DNA from: Jatrophihabitans cynanchi
GTDB taxonomy: Bacteria; Actinomycetota; Actinomycetes; Mycobacteriales; Jatrophihabitantaceae
DNA: 64,000 bases
Assembly: GCF_027247405.1 (NCBI RefSeq)
Contig: NZ_CP097463.1
Coordinates: forward strand, 2,976,001-3,040,000
Direction of reading: 5' to 3'
Shown: in pieces, positions 24,559-39,567 of the stretch
Layout: each line of letters starts with the position of its first letter
Position numbering within the stretch: position 1 is the first letter of the stretch
Translations under genes and position numbers: made by a program
Notes under the pieces: generated by a model
The model's input: the letters and a program-made list of their open reading frames with translations, nothing else
Told to the model about the DNA's origin: nothing
Databases searched by the model: none

Positions 24559-24990
24559 TCAGGCGTTGATCGCCTGCCGGTCCTCGCCCTTGCTGCTGAT
24601 GACGATCTTGCGCGGCTTGGCCTGCTCGGCAACCGGGATCAGCAGGGTGAGCACACCGGCGTCGTAGCTGGCCTCGATGTGCTGGGTGTCGAGGTTGTCG
24701 CCGAGGATCAACTGCCGGCTGAACACCCCGCGCGGGCGCTCCGCTGCGATCATCTCCGCGTTGCCGTCGCGGGTCGGGCGTTCGGCCTTGACGGTCACCA
24801 CGTTGCGTTCCACGTCCAAGTCGATCGACTCCGGGTTCACGCCGGGAAGGTCGAACTCGACGTGGAACGTGTCGCCCTCGCGCCACGCGTCCATCGGCAT
24901 CACGGCCGGACGCGCCAGCGTGCCGTTGGCGCCGAGGACCTGCTGGGTGAGCCGGTCCAGCTCACGGAACGGATCGGTGCGCATCAGCAT
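24559..24990 (-). CDS. Hsp20/alpha-crystallin small heat-shock protein
   Basis: The 143-residue protein is a typical bacterial Hsp20 (Hsp18 type). It has an N-terminal arm ([18 protein letters not shown]), the alpha-crystallin domain (about 40-130) with [20 protein letters not shown] and [14 protein letters not shown], the conserved A-x-x-x-G-V-L motif in [14 protein letters not shown], and a C-terminal I-x-I/V motif (PRKIVISSK) for oligomer assembly. It is an ATP-independent holdase in the cytoplasm. Divergent from it is a MerR/HspR-like regulator with inverted repeats between them, so heat- or stress-dependent repression is likely. Confidence 0.93.
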
Positions 24991-25029
24991 CGGTGTCCAC
25001 CTCCATCGCGTCGTTCTGTTGATGCTCGG

Positions 25030-25101
25030 CCATAGCTCGCTGGGTACGATCTATGGCATGCGCTGTAGATTTCTTTTAGCACATGCGGAATGCTGTCGCA
25101 A
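25030..25101. promoter_or_regulatory. hsp20/merR divergent promoter with nested inverted repeats
   Basis: CCATAG (25030-25035) and CTATGG (25051-25056) form an inverted repeat with a 15-bp spacer. Overlapping it, ATCTA (25049-25053) and TAGAT (25066-25070) flank a GC/GC core. On the minus strand TTGCGA (25096-25101) and TAAAAG (25073-25078), 17 bp apart, could be the hsp20 -35/-10, placing the repeats at and downstream of its transcription start. No canonical HAIR element is seen. Operator function is inferred. Confidence 0.4.
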
Positions 25102-25140
25102 GAGGGCAGCAGCCCGATCCGCTGAGAAGGAGAGCCGTTG

Positions 25141-25482
25141 ATGGGGGCACCCCGGCCTGACGATGCACGCGGCGTGTTCGGCATCTCGGTGGCCGCCGAG
25201 CTGGCCGGCCTGGGCGCGCAGACGCTGCGGCTCTACGAGGCTCGCGGCCTGCTCGAACCGGCCCGCACCGAGGGCGGTACCCGCCGTTACAGCGTGAACG
25301 ACCTCGACCGGTTGCGGCGCATCAGCGACCTGCTCGCCGCCGGGCTGAACCTGGCCGGCATCCGCATGGTGCTCGACCTGCAGGACGAGAACAGCGAACT
25401 GCGGGCGGGTGACCCGCCCACGCGCCAGAGCGCGCAAGCGCCGCAACCGAGACGGCGGTCGCGGCGTCCGGAGCAAGGCTGA
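25141..25482 (+). CDS. MerR-family regulator, HspR-like
   Basis: The 113-residue protein has an N-terminal MerR winged helix: FGISVAAELAGLGAQTLRLY, EARGLLEPARTEGGTRRYS, then NDLDRLRRISDLLAAGLNLA with a short coiled-coil helix. The tail is Arg/Gln-rich and carries no effector cysteines. This layout matches HspR, which represses hsp20, dnaK and clpB operons. GAAGGAGAG precedes the ATG at 25141. It is divergent from hsp20, the classical HspR/Hsp20 pairing, and probably represses both directions through the inverted repeats at 25030-25070. Confidence 0.82.
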   Translation: MGAPRPDDARGVFGISVAAELAGLGAQTLRLYEARGLLEPARTEGGTRRYSVNDLDRLRRISDLLAAGLNLAGIRMVLDLQDENSELRAGDPPTRQSAQAPQPRRRSRRPEQG

Positions 25483-25517: not shown

Positions 25518-26516
25518 TCAGCGCTGCGTCGCGTCCGCGGGGCCCGGCTTCTCGGCCGGCGCGCCGGTCAGGTCCACGCACAGCCGCCAGAGCTGTCGGC
25601 GCTGCTCGCACGTTTCGCGGGTGCGGCGCAGGTAATGCAGCGGCCGCGGGGCGCGGTCGTGCCACAGCCGGCCTGTGCCCAGGCCCGGGACGTCGGTGGC
25701 GGCCAGCCAGGTGACGGTGTCCGCGCCCTGATCGGCCCCGCGCAGCAGCGGCCGGGTCAGGGCGGCGAACCGGGGCAGCGACGTCGCGACCCCACCGGTG
25801 GCGACCCAGCCCGGGTGAGCCGCGTGCACGCCGACGCCCGTCCCGGCCAGGTGCTCGGCCCACAGCGTGGCCATTACGGCCTGCATCCGCTTGGTCCGCG
25901 CGTAGGCCGCGGCACCTCGGTAGTCCCCGCGCTCGTACTGCGGGTCGGACAGCTCCAACCCCTGCGTGTACATGCCGCCGGAGGTCAGCCAGATGACCCG
26001 GGCGTCCGCCGCGAGCGAGGGTGCCAGCAGCGCGGTCAGCAGGTGGGGACCGAGTACGTGCGTGGCGAGGGTCAGCTCGTTGCCGTCGACACTGACCTGC
26101 CGCGTAGCAGGCAGCACCCCGGCGTTGTGGACCAGCACCCGCACGCCGGGCGCGACGGTCGCGGCGTACTCGCGCACCGCAGCCAGTGAGCTGATGTCGC
26201 ACCCGTCGACCCGGACGTCGGCGCCCGGGACGGCCTCGAGCAGGTCGGCGCGGGCCCGCTGGCCGGCGGCGGTGTCGCGCACCACCAGGTGCACCTCGGC
26301 GCCGAGCCGGGCCAGCCCCTCGGCGATCGCCTTGCCGATTCCGCGGTTGGCGCCGGTCACGAGGGCCGGCCGCCCGGCCAGCGCTCCGGGTGGCGGGTCG
26401 GCCGGCCAGCGCCGCCGCCGTAGCATCGGGCCGAGGCGGGTGTAGCCGAGCAGGCTGCGGTCCAGGAGACGGTCCCAGGTGGCTTCGCGGGTCACCTGCT
26501 CGCGGTGCCCGGTCAC
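25518..26516 (-). CDS. Short-chain dehydrogenase/reductase
   Basis: The 332-residue SDR has a leader of about 50 residues, the NAD(P) motif ALVTGANRGIGKAIAEGLAR, the NAG strand (VRVLVHNAGVLP), and the catalytic Y-x-x-x-K in AAAYARTKRMQ with an upstream serine in WLTSGGMYTQ. It resembles retinol-dehydrogenase/DHRS12-like reductases acting on hydrophobic alcohols or ketones. The GTG start at 26516 overlaps the epimerase stop by 4 bp. It is the last gene of a four-gene operon divergent from the LitR-type photoreceptor, so light-induced expression is probable. Substrate unknown. Confidence 0.86.
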   Translation of the reverse strand: MTGHREQVTREATWDRLLDRSLLGYTRLGPMLRRRRWPADPPPGALAGRPALVTGANRGIGKAIAEGLARLGAEVHLVVRDTAAGQRARADLLEAVPGADVRVDGCDISSLAAVREYAATVAPGVRVLVHNAGVLPATRQVSVDGNELTLATHVLGPHLLTALLAPSLAADARVIWLTSGGMYTQGLELSDPQYERGDYRGAAAYARTKRMQAVMATLWAEHLAGTGVGVHAAHPGWVATGGVATSLPRFAALTRPLLRGADQGADTVTWLAATDVPGLGTGRLWHDRAPRPLHYLRRTRETCEQRRQLWRLCVDLTGAPAEKPGPADATQR

Positions 26517-27853
26517 GACGGCTGCTCCGCCGCGCCGGGGAGCCCGGCCCGGCCGAGCTGGTGGGCGAGGGCGTCGGCCAGCCGCGGATGCCGGAACCGG
26601 TGGCCGGTTGCCGCGAGTCGAGCCGGCGTCACGTGCTGGCTGGCCAGCGCGATCTCCTGCGCACCCTCGCTGCCCAGCAGCAGCCGGGGCCCGATCGCGG
26701 GCACCGGCAGCAGCGCCGGGCGGTGCATGACCCGCGCCAGCGTGCGGGCGTAGTCGCCGGCGCGGACGGCGTGCGGCGCGACGGCGTTGACCGGTCCGCG
26801 CAAGCTCTCGTCGCGCAGCGCGTGCAGGTAGACGTCGAGCAGGTCGTCCAGCCCGATCCAGGACAGCCACGCATCGGCGTCCCCGACCGGGCCGCCCAAC
26901 CCGGCGCCGAACAGCGGGCGCTGCACGCGCAGCGCACCCCCCAGCGGCGACTGCACGACGCCGGTGCGTACTTGCACCACCCGCACCCCCGCGTCGGTGG
27001 CCGGCATGGTGGCCTGCTCCCATTCGGCGACGACATCGGCGAGGAAGCCGTCGCCGCGCTCGGCCTGCTCGTCGAGCACCTCCTCCCCGCGCCGTGGCCC
27101 GTAGTAGCCGATGGCGGAGGCGCAGACGAACACCCGCGGGCCGCCGGACGCGCGGGCGGCGACCTCGGCCAGGCGCCGGGTGGGCCCCACCCGGCTCTCT
27201 CGCACGGCCCGCTTGTGCCCGTCGGTGAACCGGCCGGCGACGGACGTTCCGGCGAGGTGGATGACGGCGTCCACTCCGTCGAGCAGGTCGGCGGCGGGCG
27301 CGGCCGGATCCCAGTGCCGCGCGTCCCGGCCGGCCGGCGTGCCCCGAACCAGCCGGATCACCCGGTGCCCGCCGGTGGACAGGAACGCGCACAGCGCCGT
27401 CCCGATCAATCCGGAGGAGCCGCTCACCGCGACGGTCAGCGGGGCACCCGACCAGTAGCCGTGTGCCGCGAGGTCACCGGCGAGTTGCCGGTGCCGATAG
27501 GCCAGCATCGGCGCCAGCAGTCGCGCCGGAACCGGGGTGTCGATGCGGTCACGGACCTCGGTGTGGGCGTCGTCCACGGCCGCGAACGTGTGCTCGTGCC
27601 GCCAGCGCAGCGGCAACGACACCAGCTCGTCGACGAACCGGTACGGCGCCTCGAGGTCGCGGTGCTGCGCCACCCAGCGCAGCCCACCGGGCAGCGACAG
27701 TTCGGCGCGGCCGTCGCGCAGGTCGTCCGCCTCGCGCCGCACCCGGACCGGCTGCCACGGCGGGAGCAGCCGGGTCAACGCGCCGGGGCGCTCGTGCCAG
27801 GCGAACACCTGCCGCAGCGGTGCCGCGACGACGCTGCGTGCCTCGGCGCTCAT
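26513..27853 (-). CDS. SRPBCC domain fused to a TIGR01777-family epimerase
   Basis: The 446-residue protein has two parts. Residues 1-150 form a START/SRPBCC-like hydrophobic-ligand domain (VVAAPLRQVFAWHERPGALT, EAPYRFVDELVSLPLRWRHE). Residues 153-446 form a TIGR01777-type NAD-binding epimerase: VAVSGSSGLIGTALCAFLS, VIHLAGTSVAGRF, VCASAIGYYGPR, with a DUF1731-like end. Homologs with this fusion occur in actinobacteria and proteobacteria near DUF1365 and amine-oxidase genes. The start overlaps the DUF1365 stop by 4 bp. The reaction is unknown; modification of a lipid or pigment is a reasonable guess in this context. Confidence 0.88.
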   Translation of the reverse strand: MSAEARSVVAAPLRQVFAWHERPGALTRLLPPWQPVRVRREADDLRDGRAELSLPGGLRWVAQHRDLEAPYRFVDELVSLPLRWRHEHTFAAVDDAHTEVRDRIDTPVPARLLAPMLAYRHRQLAGDLAAHGYWSGAPLTVAVSGSSGLIGTALCAFLSTGGHRVIRLVRGTPAGRDARHWDPAAPAADLLDGVDAVIHLAGTSVAGRFTDGHKRAVRESRVGPTRRLAEVAARASGGPRVFVCASAIGYYGPRRGEEVLDEQAERGDGFLADVVAEWEQATMPATDAGVRVVQVRTGVVQSPLGGALRVQRPLFGAGLGGPVGDADAWLSWIGLDDLLDVYLHALRDESLRGPVNAVAPHAVRAGDYARTLARVMHRPALLPVPAIGPRLLLGSEGAQEIALASQHVTPARLAATGHRFRHPRLADALAHQLGRAGLPGAAEQPS

Positions 27854-28620
27854 GCTCGCTCCAATACCGAAGACACCTGCACCGGGCAACCCGCTCGTGC
27901 TTCCGGGCGCGGCTGAATCGCCAACCCCCGGCGCCACAGGCCGATGCCGTGCAGCCGGATCAGCACAGCTTCGCGCAACGGCATCGGCAAATGCCACAGC
28001 GCGGTGCGCACCACCTGCCGCCGAGTCGCCGGTACGAGCCGGGCGCGAGTGCTGGCGGTCAGCACCCGCTCGGAGTCGACGTCGAGGCCGACGACCACGC
28101 CGAGCTCGTCAGCAGACAACTGCAGCCGGACCGCGTACTCGCCCTCGACGCCGTTGAACGGCGAGACGTACAGGGCTTTCGCGGTGCGTGCCCGGCCGCG
28201 ATCGTCCAGGTCCAGCAGGTATGCCTGACGCGAGCCGTAGGTGTTGTGCACCTCCAGGACTGCGGTCCGCGACCTGGCGTCCTGGCCAAGGACCCAGTAG
28301 ACGGTCAGCGAGTTGAACACGTGTCCGAGCACCCGCGCATGGGTGAGCATCAGCAGCCGGTCGCCAGGGCGCACGGGCCGGTCGTGGCGGGCCAGCAACC
28401 GGCGCAGGTCGCCACCGATGCCGCCTGCCTGCCCGCCGTCGAGGTGGTCGCGCGCGTCGAAGCGTGCCAGGGGTCTCAGCGGGCCGAGATCCGGCAACGC
28501 GTCGAGATCCACGAGCCATTGGTAGTGGCGGTGGGTGAAGGTGTTGTGCAGCGGCGTGCGGCGGATGTGTCGCACGGTGCCGACGGCAAGCGCGGGCAGC
28601 GGCGGCAGCGCGGCGGTCAC
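27850..28620 (-). CDS. DUF1365 domain protein
   Basis: The 256-residue protein is a full-length DUF1365 member: VGTVRHIRRTPLHNTFTHRH, RLLMLTHARVLGHVFNSLT, VLEVHNTYGSRQAYLLDL, KALYVSPFNGVEGEYAVRL. No catalytic residues are established for the family. It is nearly always found beside the FAD-dependent amine-oxidase-like gene, as here, and often with a cyclopropane-fatty-acid synthase, which is absent in this window. Related loci elsewhere have been tied to membrane fatty-acid modification and to light or singlet-oxygen responses. The GTG start at 28620 overlaps the preceding gene by 4 bp. Confidence 0.88.
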   Translation of the reverse strand: MTAALPPLPALAVGTVRHIRRTPLHNTFTHRHYQWLVDLDALPDLGPLRPLARFDARDHLDGGQAGGIGGDLRRLLARHDRPVRPGDRLLMLTHARVLGHVFNSLTVYWVLGQDARSRTAVLEVHNTYGSRQAYLLDLDDRGRARTAKALYVSPFNGVEGEYAVRLQLSADELGVVVGLDVDSERVLTASTRARLVPATRRQVVRTALWHLPMPLREAVLIRLHGIGLWRRGLAIQPRPEARAGCPVQVSSVLERA

Positions 28621-29921
28621 CAGCGGCCCCCGAACCGTCCGGCGGCCTCGACGCCGGAGCGGCAGCCGTCCTCGTGGAACCCCCACCCCAGATGGGCACC
28701 GGCGAAGGCGAGCCGCGGCCCGCCCGCCTCGCGCAGCCGCGCGCCGGCGGCTACCGCAGCGTGGGTGAAGACCGGGTGCTCGTAGCGCATCCGCGCGGTC
28801 ACCAGGTGCGGTGCCACCCGGCCGGGCGCGTTCAGGGTGACGAGGTGATCCGCCGAGTCGTCCAGGCCCTGGAGGCGGTTCATCCAGTAGCTGACGCACA
28901 CCCTGTCCGCCGGGGTGCTGCAGGAGGCCATCCGGTAGTTCCACGACGAGCGCGCGCGGCGCGCAGGCAGCAGCGACGCGTCGCGGTGCAGCCAGGTCTC
29001 GTTGACCGAGTAGCCGATGGCGCCCAGGTCCTCCTTCTCCGCCGGCGTGGCGTCGGCGAGCAGGTCCAGCGCCTGGTCGGCGTGCGTGGCCACCACGGCC
29101 ACGTCGAACTGGTGCAGCCCGCCGTCGGCGGTGCGCACGTCGACACCGTCCTCGTGCCGGGTCAGGGAACGTACCGGCACCCGGGCGCGGCTGTCGCGGA
29201 GCCGGGCGACGATCGCGTCCACGTACGCGGCGGACCCGCCGACGACCGTGCGCCAGGTGGGCGAGCCGGTGATCGCGAGCATCCCGTGATGGTCGAGGAA
29301 CTGGAACAGGTGGCGCGCCGGGTAGGCCGTGGCGTCCAGATCGCCGGCCGACCAGACGCACGAGACGAGCGGGATCGCGAAGTGCCGCACGAAGTACTCG
29401 CCGAAGCCGCCGGCCGCAAGGACGTCGCCGAGGGAAGCGTCCTGCAGGTGAGCCGCGCGGCCGTCCAGCACCCGGCGGGCGAGGCGGTGGAAACGCGGCA
29501 CATCGGCCAGCATGCCCAGGAACCGTGGTTCTACCGCCCGGCGCGGCTGTGCCAGCAGGCCGGGCAGGCCGCGCCCACCGGCGTAGGACAGTCCGCACCC
29601 GTCGCAGGTGATCGACATGCTCATCTCGGTCTGGCGGGTGCGGACACCCAGTTCGGCGAACAGCCTCAGCAGGTGCGGATAGGTGCGCTCGTTGTGGACG
29701 ATGAAGCCGCTGTCGATGCGTAGCTCCCCGCCGTCGGAGCCGGGCACGCGGTGCGTGTGCGCGTGGCCGCCGAAACGGGAGTCGGCCTCCAGCAGCGTCA
29801 CGTTGTGAGTGCGGGAGAGCAGGTGGGCTGCGGTGAGGCCGGAGATGCCCGCGCCCACCACCACGGCGCTCCGCCGCGTCGCGCCTGCGCCGCTGCGTAC
29901 GTCGGTCCTTGTCGAATCCAT
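28617..29921 (-). CDS. FAD-dependent amine-oxidase-like oxidoreductase (DUF1365 partner)
   Basis: The 434-residue flavoprotein starts with AVVVGAGISGLTAAHLLS and LLEADSRFGGHAHTHRV, the FAD-binding fingerprint of NAD(P)-binding Rossmann/amine-oxidase-type proteins, and ends with RLAFAGAHLGWGFHEDG, typical of the DUF1365-associated subgroup. It is the first gene of the operon that continues with DUF1365, epimerase and SDR. The ATG at 29921 lies only about 7 nt after the -10 element, so the transcript could be nearly leaderless; an in-frame TTG at 29957 coincides with the -35 box and is rejected. Substrate unknown, probably a membrane lipid. Confidence 0.87.
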   Translation of the reverse strand: MDSTRTDVRSGAGATRRSAVVVGAGISGLTAAHLLSRTHNVTLLEADSRFGGHAHTHRVPGSDGGELRIDSGFIVHNERTYPHLLRLFAELGVRTRQTEMSMSITCDGCGLSYAGGRGLPGLLAQPRRAVEPRFLGMLADVPRFHRLARRVLDGRAAHLQDASLGDVLAAGGFGEYFVRHFAIPLVSCVWSAGDLDATAYPARHLFQFLDHHGMLAITGSPTWRTVVGGSAAYVDAIVARLRDSRARVPVRSLTRHEDGVDVRTADGGLHQFDVAVVATHADQALDLLADATPAEKEDLGAIGYSVNETWLHRDASLLPARRARSSWNYRMASCSTPADRVCVSYWMNRLQGLDDSADHLVTLNAPGRVAPHLVTARMRYEHPVFTHAAVAAGARLREAGGPRLAFAGAHLGWGFHEDGCRSGVEAAGRFGGRW

Positions 29922-29927
29922 TCCTGA

Positions 29928-29968
29928 AATGTAGAGTCTTTGTATAAGGTTTGTCAAAAGATTGGACA
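29928..29968 (-). promoter_or_regulatory. LitR/CarH-type operator: four 11-bp-spaced repeats over a -35/-10
   Basis: On the plus strand TGTAGA (29930), TGTATA (29941), TGTCAA (29952) and TGGACA (29963) recur at exactly 11-bp steps. Read on the minus strand they are TCTACA, TATACA, TTGACA and TGTCCA, close to the T-n-T-A-C-A repeats described for CarH operators. TTGACA (29952-29957) doubles as the -35 and TACATT (29928-29933) as the -10 of the FAD-oxidoreductase operon, with an 18-bp spacer. Bound regulator would block RNA polymerase. The spacing is seen directly; the binding is inferred from the adjacent litR gene. Confidence 0.7.
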
Positions 29969-29974
29969 GAGACT

Positions 29975-30406
29975 ATGCGGCTTGACCGGAGCGTGACCGT
30001 GCGCCAGCCCCTGGATCGGGTTTTCGGCTACCTGGCGGACTTCACCACCACCGAGCAGTGGGACCCCGGCACGGTGCGCACCGAGCGCCTGTCCGGGGAC
30101 GGCGGTGTCGGCACCCGGTATCGCAACGTCTCGCGGTTCCTCGGCCGACGCACCGAGCTGGATTACGTCGTGGTCGACCTGCTGTCCCCGCGGCTGATCC
30201 GGCTGCGCGGTCGGAACGCCACCGTCACTGCGACCGACACCATGCAGCTCGCCGCCGCCGACGACGGGACGACCCAGGTGCGCTATCGGGCCGAGTTCGA
30301 GTTCCACGGGCCGGCCCGCCTGGCCGCGCCGCTGCTCCGGCCCGCTCTGAAGCGTTTCGGCGACCGCGCGGCGGCGCAGCTGCGCGCGACGCTCGACGCG
30401 CTCTGA
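29975..30406 (+). CDS. SRPBCC (polyketide cyclase/dehydrase-like) protein
   Basis: The 143-residue protein has the SRPBCC hydrophobic-pocket fold pattern: VTVRQPLDRVFGYLADFTTT, a mid segment of beta strands (TELDYVVVDLLSPRLIRLRG) and a long C-terminal helix (LLRPALKRFGDRAAAQLRAT). Such proteins bind or cyclise lipids and small hydrophobic ligands. I start at the ATG at 29975; an upstream TTG at 29951 would overlap the operator. The photoreceptor gene follows after 15 bp, so the two are likely co-transcribed from the same operator-controlled intergenic region. Specific ligand unknown. Confidence 0.82.
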   Translation: MRLDRSVTVRQPLDRVFGYLADFTTTEQWDPGTVRTERLSGDGGVGTRYRNVSRFLGRRTELDYVVVDLLSPRLIRLRGRNATVTATDTMQLAAADDGTTQVRYRAEFEFHGPARLAAPLLRPALKRFGDRAAAQLRATLDAL

Positions 30407-30421
30407 GCCAGACTGCTCACC

Positions 30422-31300
30422 GTGTACACGATCCGGATGGCGGCGCGGGCGACCGGCGTCAGCGAGGCGACGCTGCGGGCCTGGGAACGCCGCTACGGCG
30501 TGATCACCCCCCAGCGCACCGAGTCCGGGTACCGGCTCTACGACGACGCCGCGATCGAGACGGTGCTCGCCATGCGCGACCTGGTGGCGCGCGGTGTCGC
30601 ACCCAGTCAGGCGGCGGTGCAGCTGAGTGCGACGGTCACGGCGGACTCGGACACCGCGCGTGACGTGCCGCACGACACCGCGGCGTTCCTCGCTGCCGCG
30701 CGTGACCTCGACGCGGCGGCGCTCACCCGCTGCCTGGACGAGGAGTTCAGTCGCGCCTCGTTCGAGCGCGTGGCGGACGGCTGGCTGATGCCCGCACTCG
30801 CGGCTCTCGGCACCGCGTGGGCCGACGGCACCGTGAGCGTCGCGGGGGAACATCTCGCCGCACAGTGCGTGATGCGCCGCCTGGCCATGGCGTACGAGGG
30901 CGTCGGGGAGCGGCCGGGCGGCCCCCGCGTCGTGATCGGACTGCCGCCGGGAGCACGCCACGAACTGGGCGTGCTCGCGTTCGCGGTGGCCGCCCGCCGC
31001 GCCGGGCTGCGGACCGTCTTCCTCGGAGCCGACGTCCCGGAAGAGGACTGGTTGACGGCGGCGGACGCGCTGCGGCCGTGGCCGAGCCGCGCGGTCGTGG
31101 TCGGGGTTGCCGCACGTCGCGATGCCCGAGCGGGGGCCGGCGTGCTGACGCGCCTGCACGAGCACGATCCGGACCTGCTGATCGCCGGTGGCGGCCGCGC
31201 TCAGGACCTGCTGCCGGAGCCGTGCCTGCGGCTGGGCCACGACCTGGGCGCTGCGGCCGCGACGCTGTCCGCGGCGTTGGCTCGCAGCGGCCGAAGGTGA
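30422..31300 (+). CDS. litR: B12-dependent LitR/CarH-type photoreceptor, MerR family
   Basis: The 292-residue protein has an N-terminal MerR winged helix (MAARATGVSEATLRAWERRY, then GVITPQRTESGYRLY), a four-helix cap region and a C-terminal cobalamin-binding domain. Diagnostic residues of CarH photoreceptors are present. W133 is followed after nine residues by E143-H144 (W-x9-E-H). H180 lies in ARHELG, the lower axial ligand position, though the usual acidic residue two before it is Ala here. SxL/GG-type B12 contacts follow (VGVAARRDARAG, LIAGGGRAQ). With adenosylcobalamin the tetramer represses DNA in the dark and releases it in light. It lies beside a matching 11-bp repeat operator, so it very likely controls both divergent transcripts. 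Confidence 0.9.
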   Translation: MYTIRMAARATGVSEATLRAWERRYGVITPQRTESGYRLYDDAAIETVLAMRDLVARGVAPSQAAVQLSATVTADSDTARDVPHDTAAFLAAARDLDAAALTRCLDEEFSRASFERVADGWLMPALAALGTAWADGTVSVAGEHLAAQCVMRRLAMAYEGVGERPGGPRVVIGLPPGARHELGVLAFAVAARRAGLRTVFLGADVPEEDWLTAADALRPWPSRAVVVGVAARRDARAGAGVLTRLHEHDPDLLIAGGGRAQDLLPEPCLRLGHDLGAAAATLSAALARSGRR

Positions 31301-31332
31301 TGTACGCGCCGAGGATCTCGGGCCTGTGACGG

Positions 31333-31405
31333 TGCCCCCGGCAGGATTCGAACCTGCGACGCCCGGCTTAGGAGTCCGGCGCTCTATCCCCTGAGCTACG
31401 AGGGC
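31333..31405 (-). tRNA. tRNA-Arg(CCT)
   Basis: The minus strand folds as a complete cloverleaf. The acceptor pairs GCCCTCG with CGGGGGC, the D-arm contains TAGCTCAG, the anticodon loop reads CTCCTAA with anticodon CCT, and the T-arm contains GGTTCGAATCC. The discriminator is A and the CCA is not encoded. Codon read: AGG. Confidence 0.95.
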
Positions 31406-38966: not shown

Positions 38967-39073
38967 GGTGCAACACCCCTGTTCCGCTTCGATCTCGCGG
39001 CACGATGCCGTGGTCGCGATGCTAGGGGCATCTGTCCCGAACGGCGAGCACCGGCGCGGCTCGGCTGCCGGGC

Positions 39074-39156
39074 GGGTGGCGGATCGGGTGGCGGATCGGG
39101 TGGCGGATCGGGTGGCGGATCGGGTGGCGGATCGGGTGGCGGATCGGGTGGCGGTC
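39074..39156. repeat. 12-bp tandem repeat (seven copies) abutting the FmdB stop codon
   Basis: GGGTGGCGGATC recurs six times perfectly, plus a seventh degenerate copy, and ends directly at the fmdB stop codon (39157-39159). In one reverse frame it would encode Pro-Pro-Asp repeats. It lies in the 190-bp gap between mscL and fmdB and is a likely length-variable minisatellite. Confidence 0.9.
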
Positions 39157-39567
39157 TCAGGCCGGGGCCGCGGCCTTGCCGGCCGAACTCGGCGCGCTCT
39201 TCGCCGCGCCGTTCGCGGAGCCACCCGAGCCGGAGTCCGACGAGGACGATGACGAGGATGAGGATGACGAGGATGAGGACGACGAGGACGACGCGGCCTT
39301 GGCGCTGGTCTTGGCCGCGGACGTGTCGCCGGACTTCTCGTCCGACTTCTCCGACCGGCCGCCACCGTCGCTGGACGCACCGGACTTGCGGCTGTCGGTG
39401 CGATAGAAGCCCGAGCCCTTGAACACCACGCCTACCGCGGAGAACACCTTGCGGACCGGTCCGCCGCAGCTGGGGCATTCGCTGGCGGCCGGGTCGGTGA
39501 ACGACTGCACGAGCTCGAACTCGTTGCGGCAGTCGGCGCTGGTGCAGGCGTACTGGTAGGTGGGCAT
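39157..39567 (-). CDS. FmdB-family zinc-ribbon protein with poly-serine tail
   Basis: Residues 1-45 form the FmdB/CxxC regulatory zinc ribbon: PTYQYACTSADCRNEFEL with one cysteine pair and ECPSCGGPVRKVFS with the second. The rest is low complexity: a charged Ser/Lys segment, a run of about 18 consecutive serines near residues 92-110 and an Ala-rich tail. The role of FmdB proteins is not settled. The poly-Ser tract is encoded with mixed codons, so it is not a simple DNA slippage product, but the 12-bp minisatellite begins at its stop codon. It stands alone between mscL and the fusion phosphatase gene. Confidence 0.85.
   Translation of the reverse strand: MPTYQYACTSADCRNEFELVQSFTDPAASECPSCGGPVRKVFSAVGVVFKGSGFYRTDSRKSGASSDGGGRSEKSDEKSGDTSAAKTSAKAASSSSSSSSSSSSSSSSSSDSGSGGSANGAAKSAPSSAGKAAAPA

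Follow-up and report, generated by a model that had tools for sequence, protein, structure and literature searches.

Four tandem 11-bp repeats form a predicted LitR/CarH operator between litR and a candidate lipid operon in Jatrophihabitans cynanchi

The 53-bp gap between two divergent operons of Jatrophihabitans cynanchi (29922-29974) carries four tandem 11-bp repeats that are very probably, from the sequence features described here, the operator of the neighbouring LitR, a coenzyme-B12 photoreceptor-repressor of the CarH type. The analysis directly establishes the repeats themselves, their rarity, their co-occurrence with litR, a conserved promoter geometry and the B12-binding signature of the regulator. 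Judged by the genes that the operator adjoins, its targets seem to be genes for protective membrane lipids rather than for pigments. What is new is this candidate lipid target and a promoter that tracks litR; the design of the operator is already known from other bacteria. The stretch of DNA analysed, referred to here as the window, is 64 kb long and is carried whole by the single contig (4,515,412 bases) that constitutes the genome. Its relevant features are as follows.

25518..26516, minus strand: short-chain dehydrogenase (SDR) gene, last of the presumed four-gene operon, 4-nt overlap (domain search)
26513..27853, minus strand: TIGR01777-family oxidoreductase gene, N-terminal part resembling a polyketide cyclase, overlapping the DUF1365 gene by 4 nt (domain search)
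27850..28620, minus strand: DUF1365 gene, candidate ufaO, 4-nt overlap with the FAD-gene stop (domain search)
28617..29921, minus strand: FAD-dependent amine-oxidase-family gene (the FAD gene), candidate ufaD, ATG at 29921 (domain and homology search)
29928..29933, minus strand: predicted -10 TACATT, overlapping DR4 (promoter scan)
29929..29972, minus strand: predicted LitR/CarH operator, four tandem 11-bp repeats (repeat scoring, genome rarity, spacing enrichment in related loci)
29929-29939, minus strand: DR4 AGACTCTACAT, perfect core TCTACA
29940-29950, minus strand: DR3 ACCTTATACAA, perfect core TATACA
29951-29961, minus strand: DR2 TCTTTTGACAA, perfect core TTGACA
29962-29972, minus strand: dr1 TCTCTGTCCAA, imperfect outermost copy, core TGTCCA
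29932..29948, plus strand: candidate -10 elements of the SRPBCC-litR promoter (by eye, absent from the promoter-scan output)
29952..29957, minus strand: predicted -35 TTGACA of the FAD-gene promoter, identical to the DR2 core (promoter scan)
29975..30406, plus strand: SRPBCC (Polyketide_cyc2) gene, first of the presumed litR operon, ATG at 29975 (domain search)
30422..31300, plus strand: litR, encoding MerR HTH, B12-binding_2 and B12-binding domains, GTG start; W133-x9-E143-H144, cobalt His H180

Read on the minus strand, the gap runs TCTCTGTCCAA-TCTTTTGACAA-ACCTTATACAA-AGACTCTACAT, in which three copies of the CarH repeat are perfect and one is imperfect; the repeat appears in print as 5'-nnnnTnnACAn-3' (accessible text of PMC9304148). 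The array thus has the make-up of a CarH operator, with three direct repeats (DRs) and one imperfect repeat (dr) in tandem at 11 bp. The original prediction had placed TGTAGA, TGTATA, TGTCAA and TGGACA at 29930, 29941, 29952 and 29963, precisely 11 bp apart, and had read them on the minus strand as TCTACA, TATACA, TTGACA and TGTCCA; both the positions and the reading were confirmed. Its description of CarH operators as direct repeats at 11-bp spacing also stands, the published core being TnnACA rather than the TnTACA that it had assumed. Scored against the four fixed letters of that core, the motifs reach 4, 4, 4 and 3 of 4 in order from 29930 to 29963: the fourth repeat is present at the 11-bp spacing, but as an imperfect pseudorepeat (TGTCCA, without the A).

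The array also overlaps both the -35 and the -10 of its predicted target promoter. The promoter scan returned a single match in 2 kb, TTGACA/18/TACATT on the minus strand, in which the -35 is the third motif and the -10 overlaps the first, as had been proposed, with an 18-bp spacer between them. The -10 ends 7 nt ahead of the FAD-gene ATG, which suggests that the transcript of the FAD operon is probably leaderless. For the opposite direction, inspection by eye picked out a candidate -10 TAGAGT (29932-29937) paired with TTGTCG (29909-29914) over a 17-bp spacer, and an alternative -10 TATAAG (29943-29948) without a clear -35; both of these weak candidates for a rightward promoter would fall inside the operator.

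A LitR/CarH-type gene bearing W-x9-E-H had been predicted some 0.5 kb from the repeats, and litR indeed starts at 30422, about 0.45 kb away, with the SRPBCC gene in between. The protein has the class I domain order, with MerR_1 and B12-binding_2 above their cut-offs and the C-terminal B12-binding Pfam domain at 25.4 bits, below its gathering score of 32.1. Residues 1-256 of 292 match solved Thermus CarH chains (5c8d, E 1.2e-24; 3whp, E 1.1e-24), H180 aligns with the cobalt-ligating His177 of Thermus CarH (CarHTt), and W133, E143, H144 and H180 are invariant in 15 aligned sequences. The NCBIfam CarH model was the best of 11 models for this LitR at 126.7 bits, far under its 400-bit equivalog cut-off. 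The nearest named homologues are actinobacterial (Nocardioides, Terrabacter, Knoellia, Janibacter and others), and the genome contains a gene for a cobalamin adenosyltransferase. Immediately downstream of litR lies a tRNA-Arg (CCT) gene (31331-31405, minus strand).

From this anatomy and from homology with characterised CarH proteins, we infer DNA binding, oligomer formation, light response, direction of regulation and product as follows. In the dark, LitR loaded with adenosylcobalamin (AdoCbl) would form an oligomer whose DNA-binding domains would line up on the 11-bp repeats along a single face of the helix, covering both promoter hexamers (-35 and -10) of the FAD-DUF1365-TIGR01777-SDR operon. 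Because the gap is just 53 bp, the oligomer would also cover the start region of the SRPBCC-litR operon, and LitR would thereby repress itself. Light would break the Co-C bond, upon which the oligomer would fall apart and both operons would be switched on; the FAD and DUF1365 products would probably then make a lipid that protects against photo-oxidation, by analogy with UfaD and UfaO.

It is unlikely that the site is a LitR operator at which LitR mainly senses AdoCbl level or redox, or acts as a light-dependent activator in the manner of Streptomyces LitR and litS. Activated LitR does promote the litS promoter in Streptomyces (available portion of PMC12705666), and the window's LitR has Ala (A134) at the position of His132 of Thermus CarH, a residue that takes cobalt after light and is reported, in the text available, as critical for tetramer disassembly (PMC10442372). 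An earlier report, as cited in the accessible part of that paper, has the H132A CarH protein still disassembling, and the available text of PMC9304148 records His132 in "many" myxobacterial CarH proteins. Among the window and 95 loci, however, His stands at this position in only 6 of 90 motif instances (two instances being counted twice, and 8 loci having no motif by the pattern used), and Priestia has Glu. Since His132 is missing from most relatives examined, its absence is common in the family and was not counted as defining; its loss was accordingly dropped as a special feature of this LitR. Coverage of both the -35 and the -10 fits a repressor.

The predicted operator of this putative repressor is rare in its surroundings. 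It is the sole four-repeat set scoring at least 14/16 at spacing 11 within the 64-kb window, in which the other spacings from 7 to 15 yielded no such set. When the 53-bp gap was shuffled by mononucleotides 200,000 times, four repeats at 15/16 were reached twice and three repeats at 12/12 three times. Across the 4.5-Mb genome, three perfect tandem 11-bp copies occur at one place (none for a reversed-pattern control); with one mismatch allowed, triples occur at 3 places, 2 of which are registers of the predicted operator, against 2 for the reversed control.

The 11-bp spacing is likewise favoured around litR in other genomes. In 94 related loci (80 named, 13 further and L015; 1,086,838 bases), there were 58 hits of at least 11/12 at spacing 11, distributed over 37 loci, compared with 1-9 for any single spacing among 7-10 and 12-15, and the remaining 57 of the 94 loci had no 11-bp array at that score. 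Perfect triples numbered 15 in 12 loci at spacing 11, and 0-1 at other spacings. The 80 named loci account for 47 spacing-11 hits, of which 32, spread over 20 loci, fall in the 300 bp preceding litR, a region comprising less than 3% of the bases and holding 0-2 hits at spacings 8-10 and 12-14. This enrichment spans loci of several phyla.

Upstream of litR in Raineyella antarctica (L046:5921-5986), six consecutive 11-bp repeats, five with a perfect TnnACA and one with a single mismatch, make an array longer than that of the window. In two Knoellia loci (L040:5991-6007 and L041:5991-6007), two perfect repeats, read on the same strand as litR, extend into the litR start codon (6001), which suggests a site inside the litR start region and partly reflects the codons of a conserved N-terminus. 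Two genomes with two litR copies each carry a four-repeat array (15/16) away from the nearest litR, by about 4 kb at L029:13004 and about 3 kb at L031:4621; these distant arrays may stand at other target genes.

The repeats can be tied to the regulator by comparing FAD-gene loci that carry litR with those that do not. Of 393 genomes of the class, 94, counting that of the window, have a FAD-gene match at E <= 1e-100, and the best 29 of the 94 matches, the window apart, were compared. litR lay in the flank of four of them (L141, L142, L148, L159) and in none of the other 25; these are called "without litR" on the basis of the flank retrieved, and their genomes may carry a weak or distant copy at another place. 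Arrays of at least 11/12 at 11 bp stood upstream of the FAD gene in all four litR-linked loci among these best 29 of 94, of which L142, L148 and L159 are alike upstream of the FAD gene and so not independent, while neither an array reaching 10/12 nor a perfect pair occurred in any of the 25 loci without a flanking litR. The genomes of the three similar loci are absent from the list produced by the genome-level litR search (E <= 1e-45). The gap upstream of the FAD gene in these three loci also holds another pair, TAGACA/TAGACG, degenerate and again spaced 11 bp, which lies downstream of both the first array and the predicted promoter.

An enlarged set added the window and L023, L030, L037 and L042, the linkage and partly the arrays of these last four loci being known beforehand. 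In this set, arrays were present in 8 of 9 litR-linked loci versus 0 of 25 others (Fisher 5e-7, uncorrected for relatedness), a count that excludes L027, where 2.7 kb separates the FAD gene from litR, and more distant FAD-match loci. None of the nine had hits at any other spacing from 8 to 14, and one locus without litR had a hit at the control spacing of 10. The sole miss, L030, has perfect pairs in a longer gap, more than 300 bp from the FAD gene, and L023 has, by eye, just two perfect repeats. The promoter followed the same distribution: a TTGACA-like -35 (at least 5/6), a spacer of 16-19 and TAnnnT were found together in 7 of the 9 litR-linked loci (the window and six more, with no match in L023 and L030) versus 0 of the 25 others, and all seven matches had an 18-bp spacer and a -35 coinciding with a repeat core. 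Being present with litR and absent without it, both arrays and promoter track litR and not the FAD gene. W-x9-E-H and the cobalt-His region (the latter by a short pattern) occur in all nine litR-linked loci. Taken together, the distribution of array and promoter and these residues support the predicted CarH/LitR operator, and the outcome named beforehand as counting against it, orthologous loci in which the spacing is not conserved, did not occur: the 11-bp spacing is conserved in the litR-linked orthologues.

These comparisons, with the shuffles and the genome-wide counts, bear on the notion that the gap is simply an AT-rich promoter with chance repeats, to which no protein binds at 11-bp spacing. 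The -35 and -10 hexamers, themselves TnnACA-like, do overlap two of the four cores, and the gap is 64% AT, but chance is a very improbable source of a score seen in so few shuffles, of a triple found once in the genome and of arrays that follow litR rather than the FAD gene. It is scarcely credible that the site serves a different MerR-family regulator encoded in this genome, candidates for which are two weaker LitR-query matches (E 5.7e-5 and 6.6e-4) and a MerR-type gene at 25138-25482, given that the site heads the litR operon, holds the only exact triple in the genome and is of a repeat type enriched just upstream of litR in several phyla.

As for what the predicted LitR operator would control, the FAD, DUF1365, TIGR01777 and SDR genes overlap by 4 nt each and so presumably form one operon. 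Its first two genes place a FAD-type desaturase beside a DUF1365 gene, as in the UfaD-UfaO module at family level. In R. sphaeroides the genes for UfaO and UfaD are adjacent, UfaO contains DUF1365, and UfaD is a desaturase that has been likened to phytoene dehydrogenases (accessible text of PMC7380195); the FAD-DUF1365 pair is therefore a candidate ufaD-ufaO, resembling at family level the module for furan fatty acids. The likeness to R. sphaeroides is one of family only. There the product is raised in chrR mutants, in the text available. In the window, none of the four FAD-operon genes was recognised as a methylase or ufaM-like gene. Two strong CMAS-family genes lie elsewhere in the genome, as matches that do not distinguish UfaM from cyclopropane synthase. 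Of 93 litR loci, 16 have a FAD-gene match within reach and 13 a DUF1365 match. The SRPBCC gene occupies the same place in L023, L037 and L042 and stands behind litR in L026. In two litR-less loci, nine ORFs were scanned, and the related genes recognised were CMAS and DUF1295 (L177) and DUF1295 (L174). The mycobacterial sigK cluster prompted the idea that SigK controls FAD-DUF1365 clusters without litR, which we do not claim. A search of the accessible literature found no publication joining CarH with furan fatty acid; among the matches listed, LitR and ufaM co-occur in a Pseudomonas study (PMC9758184) and in a blue-light review, as far as the accessible text of each goes.

Further sites were sought across the genome. 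The two-repeat pattern occurred at 13 places, 2 of them the predicted operator, against 10 for the reversed control, and hence in no clear excess. Neither perfect pairs nor triples of at least 10/12 were found at three SQS_PSY and five CMAS-hit loci (about 1.5 kb each side), and no two-repeat place lay within 30 kb of the single photolyase gene found (1.897 Mb). With no sites at the SQS_PSY loci and no excess of pairs, these pattern searches, which could miss weaker sites, leave a carotenoid-control role unsupported, and we dropped it. A more specific proposal, which we consider evenly balanced, is that LitR is a private single-site regulator of itself and of a UfaD-UfaO-like membrane-lipid operon, not of carotenoid genes or photolyase, and that FAD-DUF1365 modules without litR lost or gained operator and promoter together with it. 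In the wider class the FAD-DUF1365 module often has no litR next to it and is then devoid of both the 11-bp arrays and the TTGACA/18/TAnnnT promoter, hence the suggestion that these were gained and lost jointly with litR. Elsewhere in the window, a perfect 12-bp tandem repeat of 6.8 copies (39073-39154) adjoins a zinc-ribbon (Zn_ribbon_8) gene (39157-39567), and an Hsp20 gene is divergent from a small MerR-type regulator gene (24559-25482).

Among known systems, the array is closest in form to those of B. megaterium CarH (CarHBm), whose operators comprise tandem 11-bp nnnnTnnACAn repeats, either four DRs or three DRs and one pseudorepeat, over a -35 or a -10 (PMC9304148, in the part available). 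The original prediction had regarded a fourth repeat as a possible novelty, a claim that we withdrew on finding this arrangement already in print. Unlike in CarHBm, one array here spans within 53 bp the -35 and -10 of one promoter together with the divergent start region, and the genes presumed to be regulated are not known carotenoid genes. CarHTt is similar, in the accessible sources, in domain order, W-x9-E-H, the cobalt His and one repeat containing the -35, and differs in having three repeats and His132 in place of Ala. CarH and CarA of myxobacteria (M. xanthus, Cystobacter, Sorangium) share DR/dr arrays but have five-repeat or mixed arrays and carotenogenic targets; in Cystobacterineae the TTGACA -35 lies within a DR, as here, and in other myxobacterial suborders the operators are expected to serve divergent promoters (both from the available text of PMC9304148). 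The class II LitR proteins of Pseudomonas (PplR, PmlR2) belong to the same family and neighbour a cluster with FAD oxidoreductase, SDR and ufaM, within which light-inducible genes lie, but they are thought not to bind B12 and their site is TGTACA-N12-TGTACA, not 11-bp direct repeats (PMC9758184, accessible portion).

The array is a predicted addition, from a high-GC bacterium, to the CarH-type 11-bp direct-repeat operators. FAD loci that have a litR, set against those that lack one, supply a comparative control linking the repeats to their regulator. As a 44-bp element over a two-way promoter, the array is a candidate for a compact optogenetic part in high-GC hosts. Should the lipid reading hold, light would, through vitamin B12, directly control furan fatty acid synthesis; if the single-site reading is true, the locus would be a clean natural example of the regulatory rewiring of a photo-protection module.
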